A stretch of DNA of 64,000 nt from a virus: positions 24,520 to 88,519 of the IMG/VR virus record IMGVR_UViG_3300009026_000007; one strand, given 5' to 3'. Position 1 is the first letter of the stretch. Every line of letters begins with the position of its first letter. Shown in pieces: positions 5,238-43,788 of this stretch. The notes beneath the pieces are model-generated. The model was given only the letters and a program-made list of their open reading frames with translations. It was not told the origin of the DNA and searched no databases. Both the position numbers and the translations under genes were made by a program.

Positions 5238-6479
5238 ATGGCAACTAAAATTGAAGTTTTAGATAAGATTATGGGCAGCGGTAAGACTACAGCGATCTTA
5301 AAATGGTGTGAACAAAACCCCACTACTGCGTTCCTGTATGTGACACCTTTGTTAAGTGAAAGTGAGAAACGTGTAGTTGATGCTTGTGTAGAAGCTAAGT
5401 TCATTGCACCTAATACAGAAGAATTTGAAACTAAAGGGGAACATCTTTTAGATTTGTTACAATCTGGTGTTAACATCTCTATTACTCATGCTCTTTACTC
5501 TAGTTTAAAAGAAACACATTTACAGTGGATCACACTAAATAAATATACTATCATTCTTGATGAAGAAGTTAGTTTTATTGAACCATTTACAAGCAGCTAT
5601 AAAAAACAAGATTTTGATTATCTCCGTTCTTTGAAACAAATTGAAGTTGCAGAAGATGGTAAACTTCTATGGTTGAATGATGATATTGATAATGGTGCTA
5701 AGTACTCTAAACTTGCTAATATGTGCCGCCTAGGCATGATTTATCAAGCTAAGCGCAGTGAGAATATGTTTGTAACCCAACTGCCTATGGGATTGATTCA
5801 TTCTGCTAATCGTGTAATCTTGTTAACTTATTTGTTTAAGGGAAGCATTCTTTCTTCTTTCTTGCAACTAAAAGGAATTCATGTTGTTGATTTTAAAGAT
5901 GTGGAAGTAAAAGAGGTTTCTAAGAAGTCTTTAATTCCTTTGATTGAGTATGTAGGAGAAAAGCAAGTTAAAGACTGGGCTGGTGAATCTCTATCTTCTT
6001 CATGGTATTCTAAGAAGAACCAGAAAGATTTAACACAACTTAGTAACTCAATTAGATATATTGGAGATGCAAATAAGGCTAAAAGTACAGACTTAGTTTG
6101 GTGTGTACCATCTACACTTGTTAACCCTACAAAGAAGGGAGCTAACAAAATTAGTCCTAAAGGTTATAGTGCAGGTACTGGTGAGATTGATGAAGATGGG
6201 ATTGCTCACGGTTGTTTCCTAGCCTGTACAGCTCGTGCTACTAACGCCTATCGTGATCGTTCTGTATTGGTGCATGCTTATAACCGTTTTCCTCATGTCT
6301 CTGTTTCTTCATTCCTACAAGATTATGGTGTGGATGTTGACAACAATCAATTTGCATTGTCTGAGCTAGTCCAGTTTGTGTGGCGATCACAGATTCGTGA
6401 TGGAAAACCAATTAAGATTTGCATTTTGTCAAAAAGGATGCGATCATTGTTTCAGAACTGGTTAGCTCAAGAGGACTAA
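5238..6479 (+). CDS. SF2-like DEAD-type helicase, 413 aa
   Basis: Walker A MGSGKTT lies at about residues 12-18, a Walker B-like IILDEE at about 105-110, and a motif VI-like FVWRSQIR near the C-terminus after FLACTARATN. This is the layout of a superfamily 2 NTPase. Phage proteins of this kind act in replication initiation or recombination, though the substrate cannot be told here. It is by far the largest gene of the rightward cluster and has its own leader region. Confidence 0.75.
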   Translation: MATKIEVLDKIMGSGKTTAILKWCEQNPTTAFLYVTPLLSESEKRVVDACVEAKFIAPNTEEFETKGEHLLDLLQSGVNISITHALYSSLKETHLQWITLNKYTIILDEEVSFIEPFTSSYKKQDFDYLRSLKQIEVAEDGKLLWLNDDIDNGAKYSKLANMCRLGMIYQAKRSENMFVTQLPMGLIHSANRVILLTYLFKGSILSSFLQLKGIHVVDFKDVEVKEVSKKSLIPLIEYVGEKQVKDWAGESLSSSWYSKKNQKDLTQLSNSIRYIGDANKAKSTDLVWCVPSTLVNPTKKGANKISPKGYSAGTGEIDEDGIAHGCFLACTARATNAYRDRSVLVHAYNRFPHVSVSSFLQDYGVDVDNNQFALSELVQFVWRSQIRDGKPIKICILSKRMRSLFQNWLAQED

Positions 6480-36175: not shown

Positions 36176-36706
36176 ATGAAATTTGTAGAGTATATGAAAA
36201 TCAGAAATACCAACCCCAAGAAAAAGAATAGTCTTAGTACAGCCGAGGCAAACATTTTGGGAGTTGATATGAGTATCAGAGGCTGGATGACCAAAGATAC
36301 CAATCTAACAGACGATCAGGTAGAGAGGGCAGTTGACTTCGCACTTAAGTCTAAATTTATGAGGCAAGGTGTTAAAGATAACCTGCGTCCACTGTATATG
36401 AAACAACTTGACGGTATGGACTCACAGTGCGTGTATCTCATGGAAAATGAACTAGGTATGTTGAAAATTGGCATTAGTAATAATCCAATAAAACGTGCAA
36501 GGTCACTAAGCACAGGCAGTGGATTATCTGTAAATCTGCTTTGTTATTGGCAGATAGCTAATCCGGCAAGAAGTACAGAGGCAAAACTTCATAGACTATT
36601 CAATCAATTCAAAGTAAGTGGTGAATGGTTTAAGAGGGATAGTTTCGACAAAGAAGACATTGAATCAAACTTTAATTTTTCTTTTATTAGAAAAGATTTT
36701 GATTGA
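36176..36706 (+). CDS. GIY-YIG-like (T5orf172-type) protein, 176 aa
   Basis: C-terminal half CVYLMENELGMLKIGISNNP, RARSLSTGSG and STEAKLHRLFNQFKVSGEWF fits the T5orf172/Mug113 branch of GIY-YIG nucleases (VYL..., KIGis, R.R, E.LH..F...GEWF). N-terminal 90 residues are different and may bind DNA. It may be a homing endonuclease or a DNA-repair-like nuclease. Confidence 0.72.
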   Translation: MKFVEYMKIRNTNPKKKNSLSTAEANILGVDMSIRGWMTKDTNLTDDQVERAVDFALKSKFMRQGVKDNLRPLYMKQLDGMDSQCVYLMENELGMLKIGISNNPIKRARSLSTGSGLSVNLLCYWQIANPARSTEAKLHRLFNQFKVSGEWFKRDSFDKEDIESNFNFSFIRKDFD

Positions 36707-36709
36707 TGC

Positions 36710-36739
36710 TTGACAAATAGCATTTGAGTATGTTTTACT
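36710..36739 (+). promoter_or_regulatory. sigma70 promoter (weak -10)
   Basis: TTGACA, then TTTACT at 18 nt. ATGCT/AGCAT around it forms a small hairpin with the -35 mostly in the loop. Confidence 0.5.
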
Positions 36740-36772
36740 AACAACTTGAACTTAAACAACGGAGTCCACATT

Positions 36773-36949
36773 ATGGGCGAGATTTGCTTTTGCTCACAAT
36801 GTGGGCGTATTAATAACTATTGTGTATGTGATATCATTGTTGAGTATTTGGAAGATAATGACCCCGACTTCAAATTTGAGTGGGCTCATGAGTCAACGAC
36901 AGAATTGAAGTCAACATCATTTAGAATTATTTTACCAATCTATGAATAA
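36773..36949 (+). CDS. Cys-rich small protein, 58 aa
   Basis: ICFCSQCGRINNYCVCD gives five Cys near residues 4-17, likely a zinc site; the remainder is a strand-rich acidic domain. ATG 36773 follows CGGAG. Function unknown. Confidence 0.62.
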   Translation: MGEICFCSQCGRINNYCVCDIIVEYLEDNDPDFKFEWAHESTTELKSTSFRIILPIYE

Positions 36950-36953
36950 ATAC

Positions 36954-36982
36954 TTGACAAATAACTATTATTCATATAAACT
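36954..36982 (+). promoter_or_regulatory. Strong sigma70 promoter of the RNA region
   Basis: TTGACA, 17 nt, TAAACT (same -10 as at 15117). The first downstream start codon is about 400 bp away, so the transcript begins as RNA without a gene. Confidence 0.72.
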
Positions 36983-36989
36983 AAAAGAA

Positions 36990-37386
36990 CTGAATCAGAA
37001 AAGATTTATGAGAAGTCAGATAGCCTTCCCCTCTTAGACATACGAGCTTTGAGATTCGTGAGGTTATCGAAAGGTCAGAACACCACTGACGGAAGCCACC
37101 GGTGTAGATGTATTTATACATACTATCTGGTCTGTCGCTGACACAGCCTCTCACTTAACACATTCAATCTTGACGAAGATTGTCTAATTCCCTTAAAGGG
37201 GCTTGAAGAATTCTGACGAGAGTTTAAAGTCTTCCCTTTGTGTGACGGGGAGCAATGAATTATGGGCTGCGCAACAGCCATTAAAAACAAGTAACGGTAA
37301 GACCTTTTCAGCAAGTCTCCCTTTGTGGGGTTTGTTACATTGTCCCTGTTGCGACATCCGGCGACTTGACTAAAGAGGTCTTATTT
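36990..37386 (+). ncRNA. Structured noncoding RNA region, 5' part
   Basis: No gene. CAATCTT-GACG-AAGATTG (37165-37182) is a 7 bp hairpin. GTCAG/CTGAC (37074-37078 with 37086-37090), CCCTT-A-AAGGG near 37190 and GTAAC/GTTAC around 37291-37337 are further stems. Together with 37954-38583 and 38992-39472 this makes one long transcript dense in stems. It could be one large RNA with an inserted HNH gene, or a group I intron 5' part. Confidence 0.5.
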
Positions 37387-37953
37387 ATGAAAATTGAGCT
37401 AAAAGAGCCTTATTCTTCTGATTGGAAACTTGGTTATTTGAGAATTTCTAGTTTAGATGGAAGAAAAAGATTAGATTTATTTAATTCAAGTACAGAAAGA
37501 ACGACTACAGCTTTTGCTAGATATTTAATGTCAGTTAAAATTGGAAGGTATTTGACAGAAGATGAAGAAGCTGATCACATAGATAATGATGCAACAAATG
37601 ATTCAATAGAAAATCTACAAGTACTTAGTGTAGAGGAACATAAAGCTAAGACTAAAAGATTCGTTGAGGGTCGAATATTTAAAACCTGTGTTTGTAGTTA
37701 TTGTGGTATAGAATTTGAAAGGGAAGTCAGACAAATTAAGTCTGATAAAACCTTGTGTTCAAGGTCTTGTAATGCAAAATACAACAGGGAGTTTGGGTCT
37801 TGGACCGGAAAGCTCAAAAAGCACACCCAAGAAGAAGTAGATAAAATAGTGGAGCTAAGAGCTTCGGGTTTATCAGACTATAAAATATCCGATATAATTG
37901 GTATTCATAGGTCTAAAATACAAAGACTTCGTATTGAGCTTGGTATTAAATAG
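37387..37953 (+). CDS. HNH homing endonuclease in a structured RNA region, 188 aa
   Basis: ARYLMSVKIGRYLTEDEEAD, then HIDNDATNDSIENL and LSVEEHKAK, is the usual HNH homing motif (H, D, N). A zinc unit (CVCSYCG...CSRSC) and a C-terminal helix-turn-helix (GLSDYKISDIIGIHRSKIQ) give DNA recognition. ATG 37387 follows GAGGT at 7 nt. Its TAG stop is inside the arm of a 9 bp stem (37951-37959 with 38028-38036), so gene and RNA fold are interlocked. Confidence 0.85.
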   Translation: MKIELKEPYSSDWKLGYLRISSLDGRKRLDLFNSSTERTTTAFARYLMSVKIGRYLTEDEEADHIDNDATNDSIENLQVLSVEEHKAKTKRFVEGRIFKTCVCSYCGIEFEREVRQIKSDKTLCSRSCNAKYNREFGSWTGKLKKHTQEEVDKIVELRASGLSDYKISDIIGIHRSKIQRLRIELGIK

Positions 37954-38583
37954 TCTCTGTCCCTCACGAGGTCTTCTAAGCCTTTGACATTAAACTAGAG
38001 GATGGATGTCACGGAGTTCGATACTTCCAGAGACTACCAGTTTCACCCACAATCACTAAGATTAACTCTAAAAAGATTGTGGTATTCACGCTGTCATTTT
38101 CCTCTCCTAAGACAGCACTTAAGATATTCTCTGTTCCTCCTCTCTCTCCTCGCAGAGAATATCTTCTGGCCTTGGATAGATTATACTAGTACTCTCCTTC
38201 TAGTGTAATCTTCGCTAACAGGGCCATTTCTAAATAATCTTGTTGTTCTTTAACGATAATGTCAGTGGTCTGATCAGGATTATTTAGAAATTAATAGTAA
38301 GTAATATTTCTCATGTGTTTTAAAACCTAGAGCTAACTAGGAAGTTCGAATACTTATCTCCGCAAGCGGCTTCTGATGACTAAAGTAGGATTAATTACCC
38401 GAAAAGGTTGGTAGGAAGCTCTATTCATTAGAATTGAAGACAATAGCCAGAGTTAATCACTGTGCCGTACTGGAGTTGTGAAGCTAATGTAGGTTGGGGA
38501 CGGTTGATTACCTAAAAGAGATAGAGTTGGAGATGAGCACCAACTAAAACACAGCAGAAATATTATTTATAGGAATATATGAC
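37954..38583 (+). ncRNA. Structured noncoding RNA region, middle part
   Basis: Perfect stems follow each other. TAGTCTCTG/CAGAGACTA (37951-37959, 38028-38036), CCACAATC/GATTGTGG (38047-38054, 38075-38082), GCTGTC/GACAGC (38090-38095, 38111-38116). AAGATATTCTCTG/CAGAGAATATCTT (38121-38133, 38153-38165), ATTTCTAAATAATC/GATTATTTAGAAAT (38226-38239, 38278-38291). CCTAG/CTAGG (38326-38341) and AGTTGG/CCAACT (38525-38545). A 68-codon open frame over 38002-38208 has no protein-like features and cuts across these stems. Confidence 0.6.
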
Positions 38584-38991
38584 ATGGCTAATAAGCAGCC
38601 CCATACAGATAAACAAAAAGCAACACGCTTTGATGGTGAAAAAAGTAATAGAAATAACAAAGGCAATTCTTCTACTCGTATCAAGAAAAGTAAGTTGCGT
38701 GAACTGGCTGACAAACTTATTGAACGTCAGGATATTGCCTTGCAATTGATTGACAAGAGTTTAAAGAGCGAAGAAGTTAACCCGGACGCTGTAGCAAGTG
38801 CTAAGTGGATCATTACTTCAATCAATTCCGTTGTCAAGAGTGCTTCAGCAGAAGAGCTTGGTAGCTTCAATGCTCGCTTGAAAGGTAAGCGGGATGATGA
38901 AGAAGCTGAACAAACTCCTACTGAAATCAGTAAAGAATTGAAACCCCGTTTGAGTTTGGTTTATGTTGACCCCGGCGAAGACGATGATTAA
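38584..38991 (+). CDS. Possible small terminase subunit, 135 aa
   Basis: Basic N-terminus with Lys/Asn/Ser, a helical core (LRELADKLIERQDIALQLID; ASAKWIITSINSVVKSASAE) and an acidic C-terminus. This is a usual small terminase layout, and the large subunit lies about 4.8 kb downstream. The identification is by layout and place only. A ribosome site (AGGAA) lies upstream. Flanked on both sides by structured RNA regions. Confidence 0.45.
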   Translation: MANKQPHTDKQKATRFDGEKSNRNNKGNSSTRIKKSKLRELADKLIERQDIALQLIDKSLKSEEVNPDAVASAKWIITSINSVVKSASAEELGSFNARLKGKRDDEEAEQTPTEISKELKPRLSLVYVDPGEDDD

Positions 38992-39472
38992 GATTTAAAG
39001 AACGTCCTACAGAGCGAGTGAATATCGAAACTGGACCTTAGAGGTCGTTCTCTGTAAGAAATAGGTAAATACCTTTGGTTTGTGAGGAGCCACCACTAAA
39101 GTACAGAAAGCCCTAGACGTGAGTTTAGGCGAGCTACTGATACATACTTAAATGGGTAACTTTTCACGCTAAGCCCTAGGCTGAAGCCACTTTATGTGGG
39201 GGTGGTTTAGAGTTGTTTACCGACCTTATTAATTCCTTGTGTGTGCAGACGTACCCCAGCAATTTCTGCATGTTTGTTGCTGTAGGGTGAGAGCAAGGAA
39301 ACCTAACTAGATCGCAAGGTCTGGTATCTCAGCTAGTTCCTGAGACCCCGGCATTCTGGCGGATGCCTGTTGTAAGACACTACGGACAGACGTGTAGGGT
39401 TGTGAATCCCGTCATGAATCTGAGTAGGGCACTCATACTAATTTCACCTCAGAAAATGCCCACCTATTCCAA
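38992..39472 (+). ncRNA. Large structured noncoding RNA, 3' part next to tRNA
   Basis: No gene. Stems: ACAGAG/CTCTGT (39009-39014, 39050-39055) around GACCT-TAG-AGGTC. TTCCTTG/CAAGGAA (39233-39239, 39294-39300) closing ACCC-AGCAA/TTGCT-GGGT (39253-39262, 39277-39288). AACTAG/CTAGTT (39305-39310, 39333-39338) holding GATC-GCAA-GGTC with a GNRA loop. GGCAT/ATGCC (39350-39354, 39363-39367). AGCC-CTA-GGCT and CCAC/GTGG near 39172-39199. Closeness to a tRNA and the ornate folding recall GOLLD/ROOL phage RNAs. Confidence 0.6.
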
Positions 39473-39546
39473 GGGTCTATAGTTCAGCCGGTTAGAACAG
39501 AGAACTCATAATTCTTTGGTCGTAAGTTCAAATCTTACTGGACCCA
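39473..39546 (+). tRNA. tRNA, anticodon CAT (Met, or Ile if lysidine-modified)
   Basis: Full cloverleaf by eye: acceptor GGGTCTA/TGGACCC, D arm GTTC/GAAC, anticodon stem GAGAA/TTCTT (one G-T) with loop CTCATAA, T arm GTAAG-TTCAAAT-CTTAC, discriminator A at 39546. CCA is not encoded (CCC follows). The first pair is G-C, so it is an elongator Met or a modified Ile tRNA and not an initiator. Confidence 0.9.
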
Positions 39547-39559
39547 CCCTACATTATAG

Positions 39560-39585
39560 TCAATTATATTCTTTGGTATAATTGA
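39560..39585 (+). terminator. Hairpin behind the tRNA
   Basis: TCAATTATA/TATAATTGA, 9 bp stem with loop TTCTTTGG; followed by TTCATTT, so a weak terminator or processing stem. Another hairpin AGCCTGT/ACAGGCT is at 39620-39644. Confidence 0.5.
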
Positions 39586-39697
39586 TTCATTTGAAAGCAG
39601 ATGAGGCTGTCCCACAAAAAGCCTGTGTTGTCTGTCTACAGGCTATAATCCCTCAGAACAAGAGACCTAAAATAAATATAATATAAGGTGTTAGTTA

Positions 39698-39967
39698 ATG
39701 ACCACAACAATCCCCGATTTAATCCTCAATGGTGTTGCATACCAAGATGTGTATGCACTTGCTGGCCTCGCACCCGGAACACCCCTTATTATTCAGAATA
39801 AATGTTCTGGTCAAGTAACCTTACAAATATCGGCAATAGCACCACCAGCATCAGATAAGGATGGTTATATTCTCTACCCTTATAAAAATGCTTATATTAA
39901 TGATGCTACGGAGGGCTTGTTTGCATTTGGTAAAGGCCGCATCCATGTTGCAGAGGATGTTTCCTGA
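39698..39967 (+). CDS. Small structural protein before the tail fibre, 89 aa
   Basis: TIPDLILNGVAYQDVYALAG start, IIQNKCSGQVTLQISAIAPP: reads like a beta-sandwich virion accessory protein. Directly followed by the tail fibre gene (overlap of one base), so a fibre-associated role is likely. Not recognised further. Confidence 0.66.
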   Translation: MTTTIPDLILNGVAYQDVYALAGLAPGTPLIIQNKCSGQVTLQISAIAPPASDKDGYILYPYKNAYINDATEGLFAFGKGRIHVAEDVS

Positions 39968-42120
39968 TGCCTATTACAGAATTTAAGAGTGGTAATTCCC
40001 CAAGACTTGGCCCACCTACAAACCTTTTTGATGGTGTAGATCAAGCAGCTTCTGTAGCCTTAAGGGATTCTTACTTCGCTGCCAACCCAGCTAAATTAGC
40101 AGTGTATAACAGTAATCCGGCCTATTTAATTCGTATGACATATAATGATTCTGGTAATCCAGTTGTCAAGTATATGTCTAGGGTTGCGGGAACTTGGGTA
40201 GACTACACTCCTGTTGTTCAAGGACTTCCCGGAGAAGTTGCTTCACTCCTTGGTGTACAAGTTGGTGAGATACCATTTAAGAAACTTGATGGTACGTTCT
40301 CCGGCTCAAACATGCGTGTCCTAGATGATGGTAGTATTCTAGCACCTCCCGGCTTCACTGTTGAAAGTGGGTCTGTCACCTTTGGTCAAGTGCTTACACT
40401 CTCTGAGATTAGTGGGTTCCTCGGGATAACTAACCATTTAAATGGTAATCAGTATACCCTGGTAGATTTTAGAACACCTACAGATTCAGCCTCGTCTGTA
40501 CCTCAAATATTCCATCTTATTGGCCCGGAATCTGAGTTTATTGCTCAGGGAACAGACAGTACAAATATCCCAGACAATCCACTGATCTTTCAGTATACGG
40601 TTCAAAATACAGCAAAAACAAATAAGCTTAAGTTTCGTACTTATTCAACGATGACTAATGTACGTATTAGGATTAGGCAGTTAAGTAATGGAGTGGTTGC
40701 TAAATACATACCATCCCAACAAGCTTGGGAAGAAGAGTTTGGTGGCGTTAATTGGGTATTAGGAGATAATATTTACGACCTAGGAGACACTCCACTTATC
40801 TTTAACGCTGGCACAATCATTGAGATTGAAATCAGAGCAGATATTGTCTCTTTAAAAGGTAATGCAAGTGAGATTCCTTATTTTACTGGAATTTTACAAG
40901 CCGGGGAATTTAGACAAGTAATCACTAATGCTGCCTATACTGCATCAGACATCAAGACAAAGCTTGAAACACTTTCTAGCCCTAATAAGCTCGCTAAAAC
41001 AGCCATTCAAGATGCTGTATTGAGTGTCAACGCAGGTACAGGTGATGTAGTCATTGGCAAATCTGATATTGGTTTAGGTAATGCTGATAATACGTCTGAT
41101 ATTAACAAACCCGTAAGTACAGCCCAGCAGACAGCTATCAACCTGTCTATGTCTAACCATTTGGTTGCTGGTGACCCACACCCTCAGTACACAACTCCTG
41201 CTGAAGCATCCGCCGCCGCGCCTGTTCAGACAGTCCAGGGTTTGACAGGTGCTGTTGTCTTAACAACTGCTAATATCACTGAGAGTGGGAATTTATACTA
41301 TTCAGACAGCAGAGTTACAAACTACCTTGTAACTAACGGCTACGTTACAAAATCTGCAAGCTCTGTTGGCTCTGGAAGTTCTATCTATAAACAAAATAAC
41401 TTAAATAATCTTGAGTTTAGAAGCCTTATAGGGACAGGTATTGCTTCTGTAACACAGAATGCAAATGACATCACTATCAACGTACCAGCAAATTCTATTA
41501 CAAGTGTGAATGGTCAAACGGGTGTTGTAGTTCTTAGTACAACAAATATTGCCGAAGGTACAAACCTCTACTATACAGATTCTCGTGTAGGGACTTACCT
41601 CACGTCTAATGGATACACTGTTAAGTCAATTAATAATGTAGGCACGGGTAGTAATATATACGCGGGTAATACAGCGGGATCGGTTACACTAAGAAGTATT
41701 ATTGGTACAGGTGGTGTGACAGCTACACAGAACGCCAACGATATTACACTGAGTACCCCAACGATCACAGGGGGCACTTACACCCCAACACTCACTAACG
41801 TTTCTGGCGTAACAACTTCTTCTGTTTCTTCTGCTCAATGGCAGCAAGTTGATGGTACAGTCACTGTAAGTGGGCAAATAACTATTGACCCAACTGGAGC
41901 AGGGGGAGGCACCTCTGTAAGTATTGGATTAAAACTTCCTGTAGCCTCTAACTTCGCTAACGCTAATGAATGCGCGGGTACTGCTGTTTCTCCAGGAATC
42001 GGGGGGCAATGTGGTGCAATCTTAGCTGATGCTGCAAACAACAGAGCAAACCTTCAATTCGTCTCTGTGTCTGGTTCAAGTCAAACTTGGTATTATCAAT
42101 ATACTTACAGAGTTATCTAA
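39967..42120 (+). CDS. Tail fibre protein, 717 aa
   Basis: Repeated fibre units: VQGLTGAVVLTTANITESGN with LYYSDSRV, and again VNGQTGVVVLSTTNIAEGTN with LYYTDSRV (about residues 420-540), a signature of trimeric tail fibres. The last 120 residues are a Gly/Ser/Thr-rich tip domain, GGTYTPTLTNVSGVTTSS to YYQYTYRVI, likely receptor-binding. The N-terminal 300 residues would attach to the tail. Confidence 0.82.
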   Translation: MPITEFKSGNSPRLGPPTNLFDGVDQAASVALRDSYFAANPAKLAVYNSNPAYLIRMTYNDSGNPVVKYMSRVAGTWVDYTPVVQGLPGEVASLLGVQVGEIPFKKLDGTFSGSNMRVLDDGSILAPPGFTVESGSVTFGQVLTLSEISGFLGITNHLNGNQYTLVDFRTPTDSASSVPQIFHLIGPESEFIAQGTDSTNIPDNPLIFQYTVQNTAKTNKLKFRTYSTMTNVRIRIRQLSNGVVAKYIPSQQAWEEEFGGVNWVLGDNIYDLGDTPLIFNAGTIIEIEIRADIVSLKGNASEIPYFTGILQAGEFRQVITNAAYTASDIKTKLETLSSPNKLAKTAIQDAVLSVNAGTGDVVIGKSDIGLGNADNTSDINKPVSTAQQTAINLSMSNHLVAGDPHPQYTTPAEASAAAPVQTVQGLTGAVVLTTANITESGNLYYSDSRVTNYLVTNGYVTKSASSVGSGSSIYKQNNLNNLEFRSLIGTGIASVTQNANDITINVPANSITSVNGQTGVVVLSTTNIAEGTNLYYTDSRVGTYLTSNGYTVKSINNVGTGSNIYAGNTAGSVTLRSIIGTGGVTATQNANDITLSTPTITGGTYTPTLTNVSGVTTSSVSSAQWQQVDGTVTVSGQITIDPTGAGGGTSVSIGLKLPVASNFANANECAGTAVSPGIGGQCGAILADAANNRANLQFVSVSGSSQTWYYQYTYRVI

Positions 42121-43110: not shown

Positions 43111-43788
43111 ATGTTACTAGAAAGACCAAGAAAAGACTTAACTTCAAATCAATATACCAGACTTACTGTTATAGATTTCTCACACTTCCATATTCAACCT
43201 AGCGGACAAAGAAAAGCAGTTTGGAATTGTCTGTGTGAGTGCGGAAATCAGGTGAAAGTTAGTCACTCTAACCTTGTTTCTGATCACACTCAAAGTTGTG
43301 GATGTCTTAAGCAAGAAAGAATAACAAAGCATGGTATGTCAGATACTACAGAGTACAGATCGTACCGTGAAATGAAAAACCGGTGCACTAACGAAAATGA
43401 TACAGCTTATAGTTATTACGGAGAACGTGGAATTAAAATCTGTGATCGTTGGTTAGAAGATATGCCTGCTGGATTTAATAACTTTTATCAAGATTTAGGA
43501 CCATGCCCTCAAGGTATGTCTCTAGAACGTATAGAAGTTGAAGGAGATTATACTCCTGAGAATTGTAAGTGGGAAACTGACAGTATGCAGTCCTACAACA
43601 CAAGAATTAAGTCTCATAATACTTCGGGTCGAACTGGAGTTGGTTGGGATAACGCTAAGAATAAGTGGCTTGCTCAGATCGGTTATTTGGGTAAAGTTAT
43701 CTTTCTTGGTAGATATTTTTCTTTTGATGAAGCGGTTTCAGCTAGAGAAAAGGCTGAGATAAAGTATTTTGGACGAACCAAAGAGTGA
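43111..43788 (+). CDS. HNH-AP2 homing endonuclease, 225 aa
   Basis: N-terminal zinc part (CLCECG...SCGCLKQE), an HNH core (YYGERGIKICDRWLEDMP... SLERIEVEGDYTPENCKW) and a C-terminal AP2 unit (GRTGVGWDNAKNKWLAQIG). This three-part plan is common in phage homing endonucleases. It stands free between the 42636 gene and the large terminase gene and has a leader with small hairpins. The next gene starts 41 bp after its end. Confidence 0.88.
   Translation: MLLERPRKDLTSNQYTRLTVIDFSHFHIQPSGQRKAVWNCLCECGNQVKVSHSNLVSDHTQSCGCLKQERITKHGMSDTTEYRSYREMKNRCTNENDTAYSYYGERGIKICDRWLEDMPAGFNNFYQDLGPCPQGMSLERIEVEGDYTPENCKWETDSMQSYNTRIKSHNTSGRTGVGWDNAKNKWLAQIGYLGKVIFLGRYFSFDEAVSAREKAEIKYFGRTKE

Follow-up and report, generated by a model that had tools for sequence, protein, structure and literature searches.

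A probable RNA-gene island in a phage tRNA array, made up largely of separate structured RNA modules, with a conserved RNA leader ahead of its homing-endonuclease gene

Introduction

The small RNAs of phage tRNA clusters have stood unexplained since T4, whose tRNA region encodes RNAC and RNAD, small RNAs of unexplained role (PMC3014915). Phage PAK_P3 produces two abundant late small RNAs, one of which, sRNA2, is intergenic between phage tRNAs and is reported to have an 11-nt stretch in common with tRNA T-loops (PMC4933390). GOLLD and ROOL are structured phage RNAs that also occur near tRNAs (PMC12286853). Outside phages, RNAs of the alpha-r14 family consist of three hairpins whose stems change fast and whose loops have a common pyrimidine motif complementary to the Shine-Dalgarno (SD) sequence, and NfeR1 uses three such anti-SD hairpin loops to act on translation starts (PMC10746234). 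RNA structures are also found over the ribosome-binding sites of homing genes, namely I-TevI, Aeh1 mobE and T4 segB, of which mobE and segB are stand-alone genes (PMC3014915).

Here we describe a phage locus that can be compared with each of these systems. Like GOLLD and ROOL it has a phage location near tRNAs, a feature that is present here and is not specific; unlike them, it is composed of small, separable and reordered modules with no covariance-model match, while GOLLD often exceeds 800 nt. It is like T4 RNAC and RNAD by its location in a tRNA cluster, not by sequence. PAK_P3 sRNA1 and sRNA2 provide a parallel in a distant relative, likened by tRNA location and again not by sequence, and none of our modules was found in the stretch of phage PAK_P5 that was checked. 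It belongs to an uncultured phage group, and most of it appears to consist of distinct, previously undescribed genes for structured small RNAs, interspersed with tRNA genes, together with a homing-endonuclease gene that has a conserved RNA leader.

Results

The window, 64,000 nucleotides in length, comes from a virus record of 88.5 kb in IMG/VR with myovirus genes (terminase, portal, sheath and baseplate). The closest cultured terminases are those of Pseudomonas phage vB_PsaM_M1 (47%), phiPMW (43%) and the PAK_P3 group (39%; PAK_P5 39% identical), and from these distant relatives Pseudomonas may be guessed as the host. All of the evidence presented here is comparative and comes from relatives within a single phage group, mainly metagenomic: about 45 related IMG/VR phage contigs formed the comparison set, modules were mapped over 44 loci, and profiles of sub-stretches were used as queries. 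The comparison of gene-free DNA was made possible by a conserved phage gene at 38584-38991 (ORF 38584), which has 43 homologous loci in IMG/VR. The initial annotation had suspected this gene of being an insertion in an RNA; it is instead a real and ordinary conserved phage gene, for which no homologue was found in annotated cultured phages or in GTDB bacterial genomes. Its profile is related to that of phiPMW gp123 (hhalign, E 7.6e-7, probability 92%), which itself has a tRNA cluster on one side and the terminase on the other, and from this kinship and position ORF 38584 may possibly encode a small terminase subunit.

All of the features of the island described below lie on the plus strand. 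The initial annotation had pointed to a strong promoter, gene-free stretches of about 400, 630 and 480 bp, an HNH gene and a tRNA at the end, and all of these are present: the sigma70-type promoter of the RNA array at 36954-36982 (TTGACA-17-TAAACT, 10/12), the gene-free stretches at those lengths, an HNH homing-type endonuclease gene at 37387-37953 (phrog_14913, 7e-56; slightly under the Pfam cut-off for HNH_3) and, after the gene-free stretches, tRNA-Met(CAT) at 39473-39548 (ARAGORN, Rfam). In 12 of the 13 loci inspected, a TTGAC box, mostly with a TATAAT-like second box, lies no more than 260 nt 5′ of the first RNA module, and this holds although that module differs among them. The proposal of new structured RNA adjoining a tRNA behind this promoter is likewise supported, and conserved RNA structure is encoded by much of the gene-free DNA. 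Folding z-scores were −6.6 for module B, −3.3 for H2, −3.0 for H, −2.9 for A, −2.0 for 1up, −1.9 for 1, −1.8 for C1 and −0.4 for C, compared with −0.2 for ORF 38584 and 0.0 and −1.0 for two coding controls. The many stems listed earlier therefore exceed chance in part of the stretch; that they all belong to a single RNA is not supported.

The idea that a single giant ornate RNA, resembling GOLLD or ROOL or forming a new class, fills 36990-39472, with the HNH gene and ORF 38584 as interruptions, draws on the length of the region, its dense structure, the adjoining tRNA and the single promoter, and the block 38980-39554 is indeed intact at 91% in one relative (L048). It is, however, very improbable. 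In 36500-40000, GOLLD, ROOL and group I and II introns gave no Rfam match up to E=5, tRNA was the sole family in the region to reach its curated threshold, and 25 other loci gave neither GOLLD nor ROOL at the gathering threshold. Over the 44-locus map the modules differ in order, in spacing and in whether they occur at all, with tRNAs between them; they are found alone, reordered and on both sides of ORF 38584, itself a gene with many homologous loci as described above.

Nor does the HNH gene appear to have split an RNA. The place of this gene and its leader (module A, below) is held by tRNA genes in two relatives, L048 and L040, which argues against such a split: in both, a tRNA-Gly begins 4 nt after module 1, and in L048 a tRNA-Gly and a tRNA-Arg stand between modules 1 and B. 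In relatives lacking the HNH gene the flanks are separate units, and the gene brings a leader of its own. From these alignments the HNH gene appears to have been inserted, or to have replaced tRNAs, between RNA genes. Of the suggestion that a mobile gene lives inside a noncoding RNA, what stands is a mobile-type gene embedded in an RNA region; interruption of an RNA gene is not supported. Cassettes of this kind take other positions in other phages: upstream of B, in the interval from B to the ORF, or downstream of the ORF or of module C. The region is rich in homing-type genes. A MUG113/T5orf172-type (GIY-YIG-like) gene lies upstream of the island (36176-36706), and a second HNH gene lies directly ahead of the terminase (43111-43788). 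Two relatives (L006 1589-2582 and L044 6533-7526) have an HNH gene behind a tRNA-Met, and the DNA beyond that gene matches window positions 39516-39692, which begin with the 3′ half of the window's tRNA-Met. It looks as if a homing gene had invaded the tRNA gene, with a tRNA left behind or rebuilt.

The array opens with module 1up (36990-37156), which has a closing stem of the GAGAAG/CTTCTC type and homologues in L044, L049 and L021, as well as in the cultured phage vB_PsaM_M1 (1.6e-5). By eye, this stem is altered on both sides in L049. Module 1 (37157-37262) was recognized by nucleotide conservation with a sharp 3′ homology edge near 37262, and its nucleotide identity is 93-98% among phages whose ORF 38584 proteins are just ~50% identical. 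It follows 1up in the window, L044 and L049 and precedes it in L021. A further element, common to L044 (5500-5610) and L049 (5207-5335), lies beside module 1 and contains two T-arm-like hairpins (GTTCAATTC and GTTCGATTC). The modules were no more complementary to 16S or 23S rRNA than shuffled sequences were, with the exception of an 11-nt match of module 1 to 23S rRNA that is self-complementary and marginal. In gene-free DNA between the tRNAs of Pseudomonas phage PAK_P5 (L304 10010-10022) we observed a 13-mer, AGGAGGTGATCCA, that is an exact complement of the 3′ end of 16S rRNA (from E. coli position 1528 on).

Module A (37263-37386) is a pseudoknotted leader of homing-nuclease genes, defined by comparison and carried by 16 contigs including the window, each counted once. 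It consists of helix P1, whose loop pairs with a downstream strand (PK1), helix P2, and helix P3, which crosses P2. Pairing reaches 94%, with double changes in 15 of 39 pairs as against at most 2 in slid controls. When a covariance model of A was run against 60 loci, strong matches occurred once per contig and only in the known carriers; the restriction of A to nuclease genes is based on two pattern scans and the loci examined. Four pattern matches in GTDB genomes were judged to be chance, since their likeness was confined to the searched pattern. In every copy for which the downstream gene was in hand, A ends 0-4 nt 5′ of the nuclease start codon, and the alignment places a GAGG-, AGGG- or AAGG-type SD sequence within the 3′ arm of P3. 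A thus has the arrangement of a leader that occludes a ribosome-binding site, with the SD in a helix just ahead of the start. The structures described for I-TevI, mobE and segB are helices or hairpins of single genes, whereas A is a pseudoknotted fold of ~120 nt found ahead of seven unrelated nuclease clusters; a limited literature search found no pseudoknotted homing-gene leader common to several genes.

Fourteen of the nucleases behind A were compared and fell into seven clusters with no BLASTP link at 1e-3, among them HNH_3, NUMOD4-HNH and a T5orf172-type protein. In L023 and L065 the leaders are 98% identical and the nuclease proteins are unrelated. The presence of the same leader ahead of unrelated nucleases marks A as an exchangeable control module, swapped between nuclease genes. 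The pseudoknotted fold of A, its association with homing nucleases and the frequency of group I introns in these phages might suggest that A and the HNH gene make up a self-splicing or self-cleaving element of a new kind, with A as a ribozyme or its 5′ half. We consider this improbable, given that no group I or II intron match was found by Rfam in 36950-39590, that the sequence 3′ of the nuclease stop codons holds no conserved counterpart to A, and that the fixed distance from the end of A to the start codon is leader-like. Group I introns (RF00028) do occur downstream in seven relatives (L006, L021, L022, L026, L040, L044 and L047).

Behind the HNH gene lies a tRNA-like sequence (37953-38039), read from the sequence itself, with a CCA end, a 7-bp acceptor-like stem and a T-arm-like part (GTTCGATAC). 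ARAGORN does not call it and its folding z-score is about 0; in L048 its place is taken by the tRNA-Arg. In L044 (~5620-5712) and L049 (~5630-5714), a tRNA-like piece with a CCA or near-CCA end likewise lies directly 5′ of B. All three pieces have acceptor-like stems, T-arm-like parts and unusual bodies, and all three go without an ARAGORN call.

Module B (38040-38225) comprises a first hairpin followed by three hairpins with CUCUCC loops (38096-38110, 38135-38151 and 38190-38199). A profile search found homologues at 37 loci, often directly 3′ of a tRNA CCA end, and in ten of these B abuts the preceding tRNA with zero gap or a one-base overlap. Among 95 large hairpin loops from 31 sequences, 87 contain CUCC, the usual core being CCUCUCC. 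Hairpins 2 and 3 have many double-sided changes in a sequence-based (MAFFT) alignment, in which 22% of cells are unpaired and the variable arms of B, as of C, are poorly aligned. Among the listed matches to a triple-CUCUCC pattern in viral contigs, the additional true B matches fitted the B profile and were of the same kind.

The strand of B was decided by a z-score test. The mean was −5.9 for the plus strand and −2.2 for the minus strand, and the plus strand was lower in 29 of 29 sequences; a plain minimum-free-energy test was weak (20/32) and wobble counts were uninformative. The minus strand has GGA loops, as would an RsmZ-like sponge for CsrA/RsmA: the reverse complement of B places AGGAGAG in the same hairpin loops, and the closest cultured relatives infect Pseudomonas. 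This reading is very improbable in view of the uniform z-score result and of the promoter, the tRNAs and the CCA junctions, all of which indicate the plus strand.

From the architecture of its plus strand we infer that B is most likely a trans-acting anti-SD RNA. It resembles alpha-r14/NfeR1 of alphaproteobacteria (RF02344) in that its cmscan alignment spans the whole model and in having three hairpins, each with a pyrimidine anti-SD loop motif. Its score of 23.6 bits (E 0.15) falls short of the Rfam threshold of 58.8 bits, and it differs in its loops, which have CUCUCC where alpha-r14 has CCUCCUCCC, the exact CCUCCUCCC not being kept, and in being phage-borne, located after tRNAs and provided with an extra 5′ hairpin. 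The likeness would then be a convergence of design and not membership. The phage's own ribosome-binding sites contain AGGAG in 17 of 81 ORFs and GGAGA in 17 of 81, which means that B could hit the phage too.

B might instead be a cis-acting part of the transcript, with C-rich loops for Rho or S1 or a processing signal. Nearly all copies lie upstream of ORF 38584, many of them with hairpin H behind, and CUCUCC is a loose fit to C-rich protein-binding sites. We nevertheless regard a cis role as unlikely: in nine loci B lies 2.5-3.2 kb from the ORF or the next module, and three structured loops with a fixed motif are better suited to pairing with ribosome-binding sites. The nine loci with 2.5-3.2 kb between B/H and the ORF or leader A are L014, L028, L031, L032, L033, L038, L042, L043 and L051.

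Two further elements separate B from ORF 38584. Hairpin H (38226-38290; 17 loci) has a 13-bp stem (38227-38239 with 38278-38290), and at its position other phages have differing yet still complementary stems. Module H2 (38303-38564), in the 5′ untranslated region of ORF 38584, has a platform stem (AATATTTCT with AGAAATATT) around a variable insert; the same stem encloses another insert in L006, and in L005 (5790-5870) the enclosed sequence is tRNA-like.

Downstream of the ORF, module C1 (38992-39240) is gene-free and uncertain in structure, its sole relative being L048, where it lies inside a 575-nt block at 91% identity. Module C2 (39235-39300), with closing stem CCTTG/CAAGG, occurs in 12 loci, 8 times upstream near the promoter and 4 times downstream of the ORF as in the window. 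Module C (39300-39470) is an RNA of ~170-200 nt with homologues at 30 loci by profile search, situated soon after the ORF in most; a wide-pattern search in viral contigs covered the matches listed. It contains P1 (39307-39324, GCAA loop), P2 (39327-39345), P3 (39350-39367, CUGGCG loop), P4 and a 3′ domain. P3 is 98% paired over 25 distinct sequences; 5 of its 6 pairs have changed on both sides, and its covariation of 0.97 compares with at most 0.18 in slid controls; P4 to P6 have double-sided changes as well, on an imperfect alignment. The case for C is this covariation, not energy, the window's copy having no unusual folding energy. A variant of C lies unannotated in cultured phage vB_PsaM_M1 (L058 9796-9990), upstream of its tRNAs, tRNA-Pro among them; it has P1, P2 and the 3′ domain in common with the others and is without P3.

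Discussion

Taken together, the comparisons suggest that the stretch is probably an RNA-gene island within a tRNA array, in which a one-promoter transcript carries independent structured RNAs and a homing cassette with an exchangeable leader, and in which B and A control translation. Transcription from the promoter at 36954 would yield one transcript holding several small structured RNAs, tRNA and tRNA-like pieces and one protein gene. The RNAs would be released by processing where tRNAs end, with hairpin H as a possible further site. The CUCUCC loops of B may then pair with GGAGAG-type ribosome-binding sites, so that translation would be blocked or sorted during infection, while C is a second structured RNA. 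The HNH gene is a homing-type cassette set between RNA modules. In A, for which comparison indicates two pseudoknots and an SD buried by P3, this burial would keep translation off on read-through transcripts until the fold opens. Homing and recombination in the region may account both for the shuffling of modules and for the near-identity of some of them in otherwise distant phages. The two abundant late small RNAs of PAK_P3, one of them encoded between tRNAs, support this picture indirectly (PMC4933390).

A more far-reaching proposal is that A is a true RNA switch, sensing a ligand, a protein or the ribosome and exchangeable among unrelated homing nucleases, and that B is a phage-made anti-SD RNA that redirects translation. 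We put this forward tentatively, as possible and somewhat doubtful; if true, the A switch and B together would form a previously undescribed layer of RNA-based control in phages.

Covariation defines three RNA families (A, B and C), and Rfam has no match for any of them. The form of B points to a testable mechanism, that of NfeR1-like anti-SD loops, and the common leader A indicates that a regulatory RNA, not the nuclease alone, is traded between homing genes. The C variant in cultured vB_PsaM_M1 leaves part of this open to laboratory checking now. The findings suggest that, in phages of this kind, RNA takes a larger part in the control of translation than previously described.
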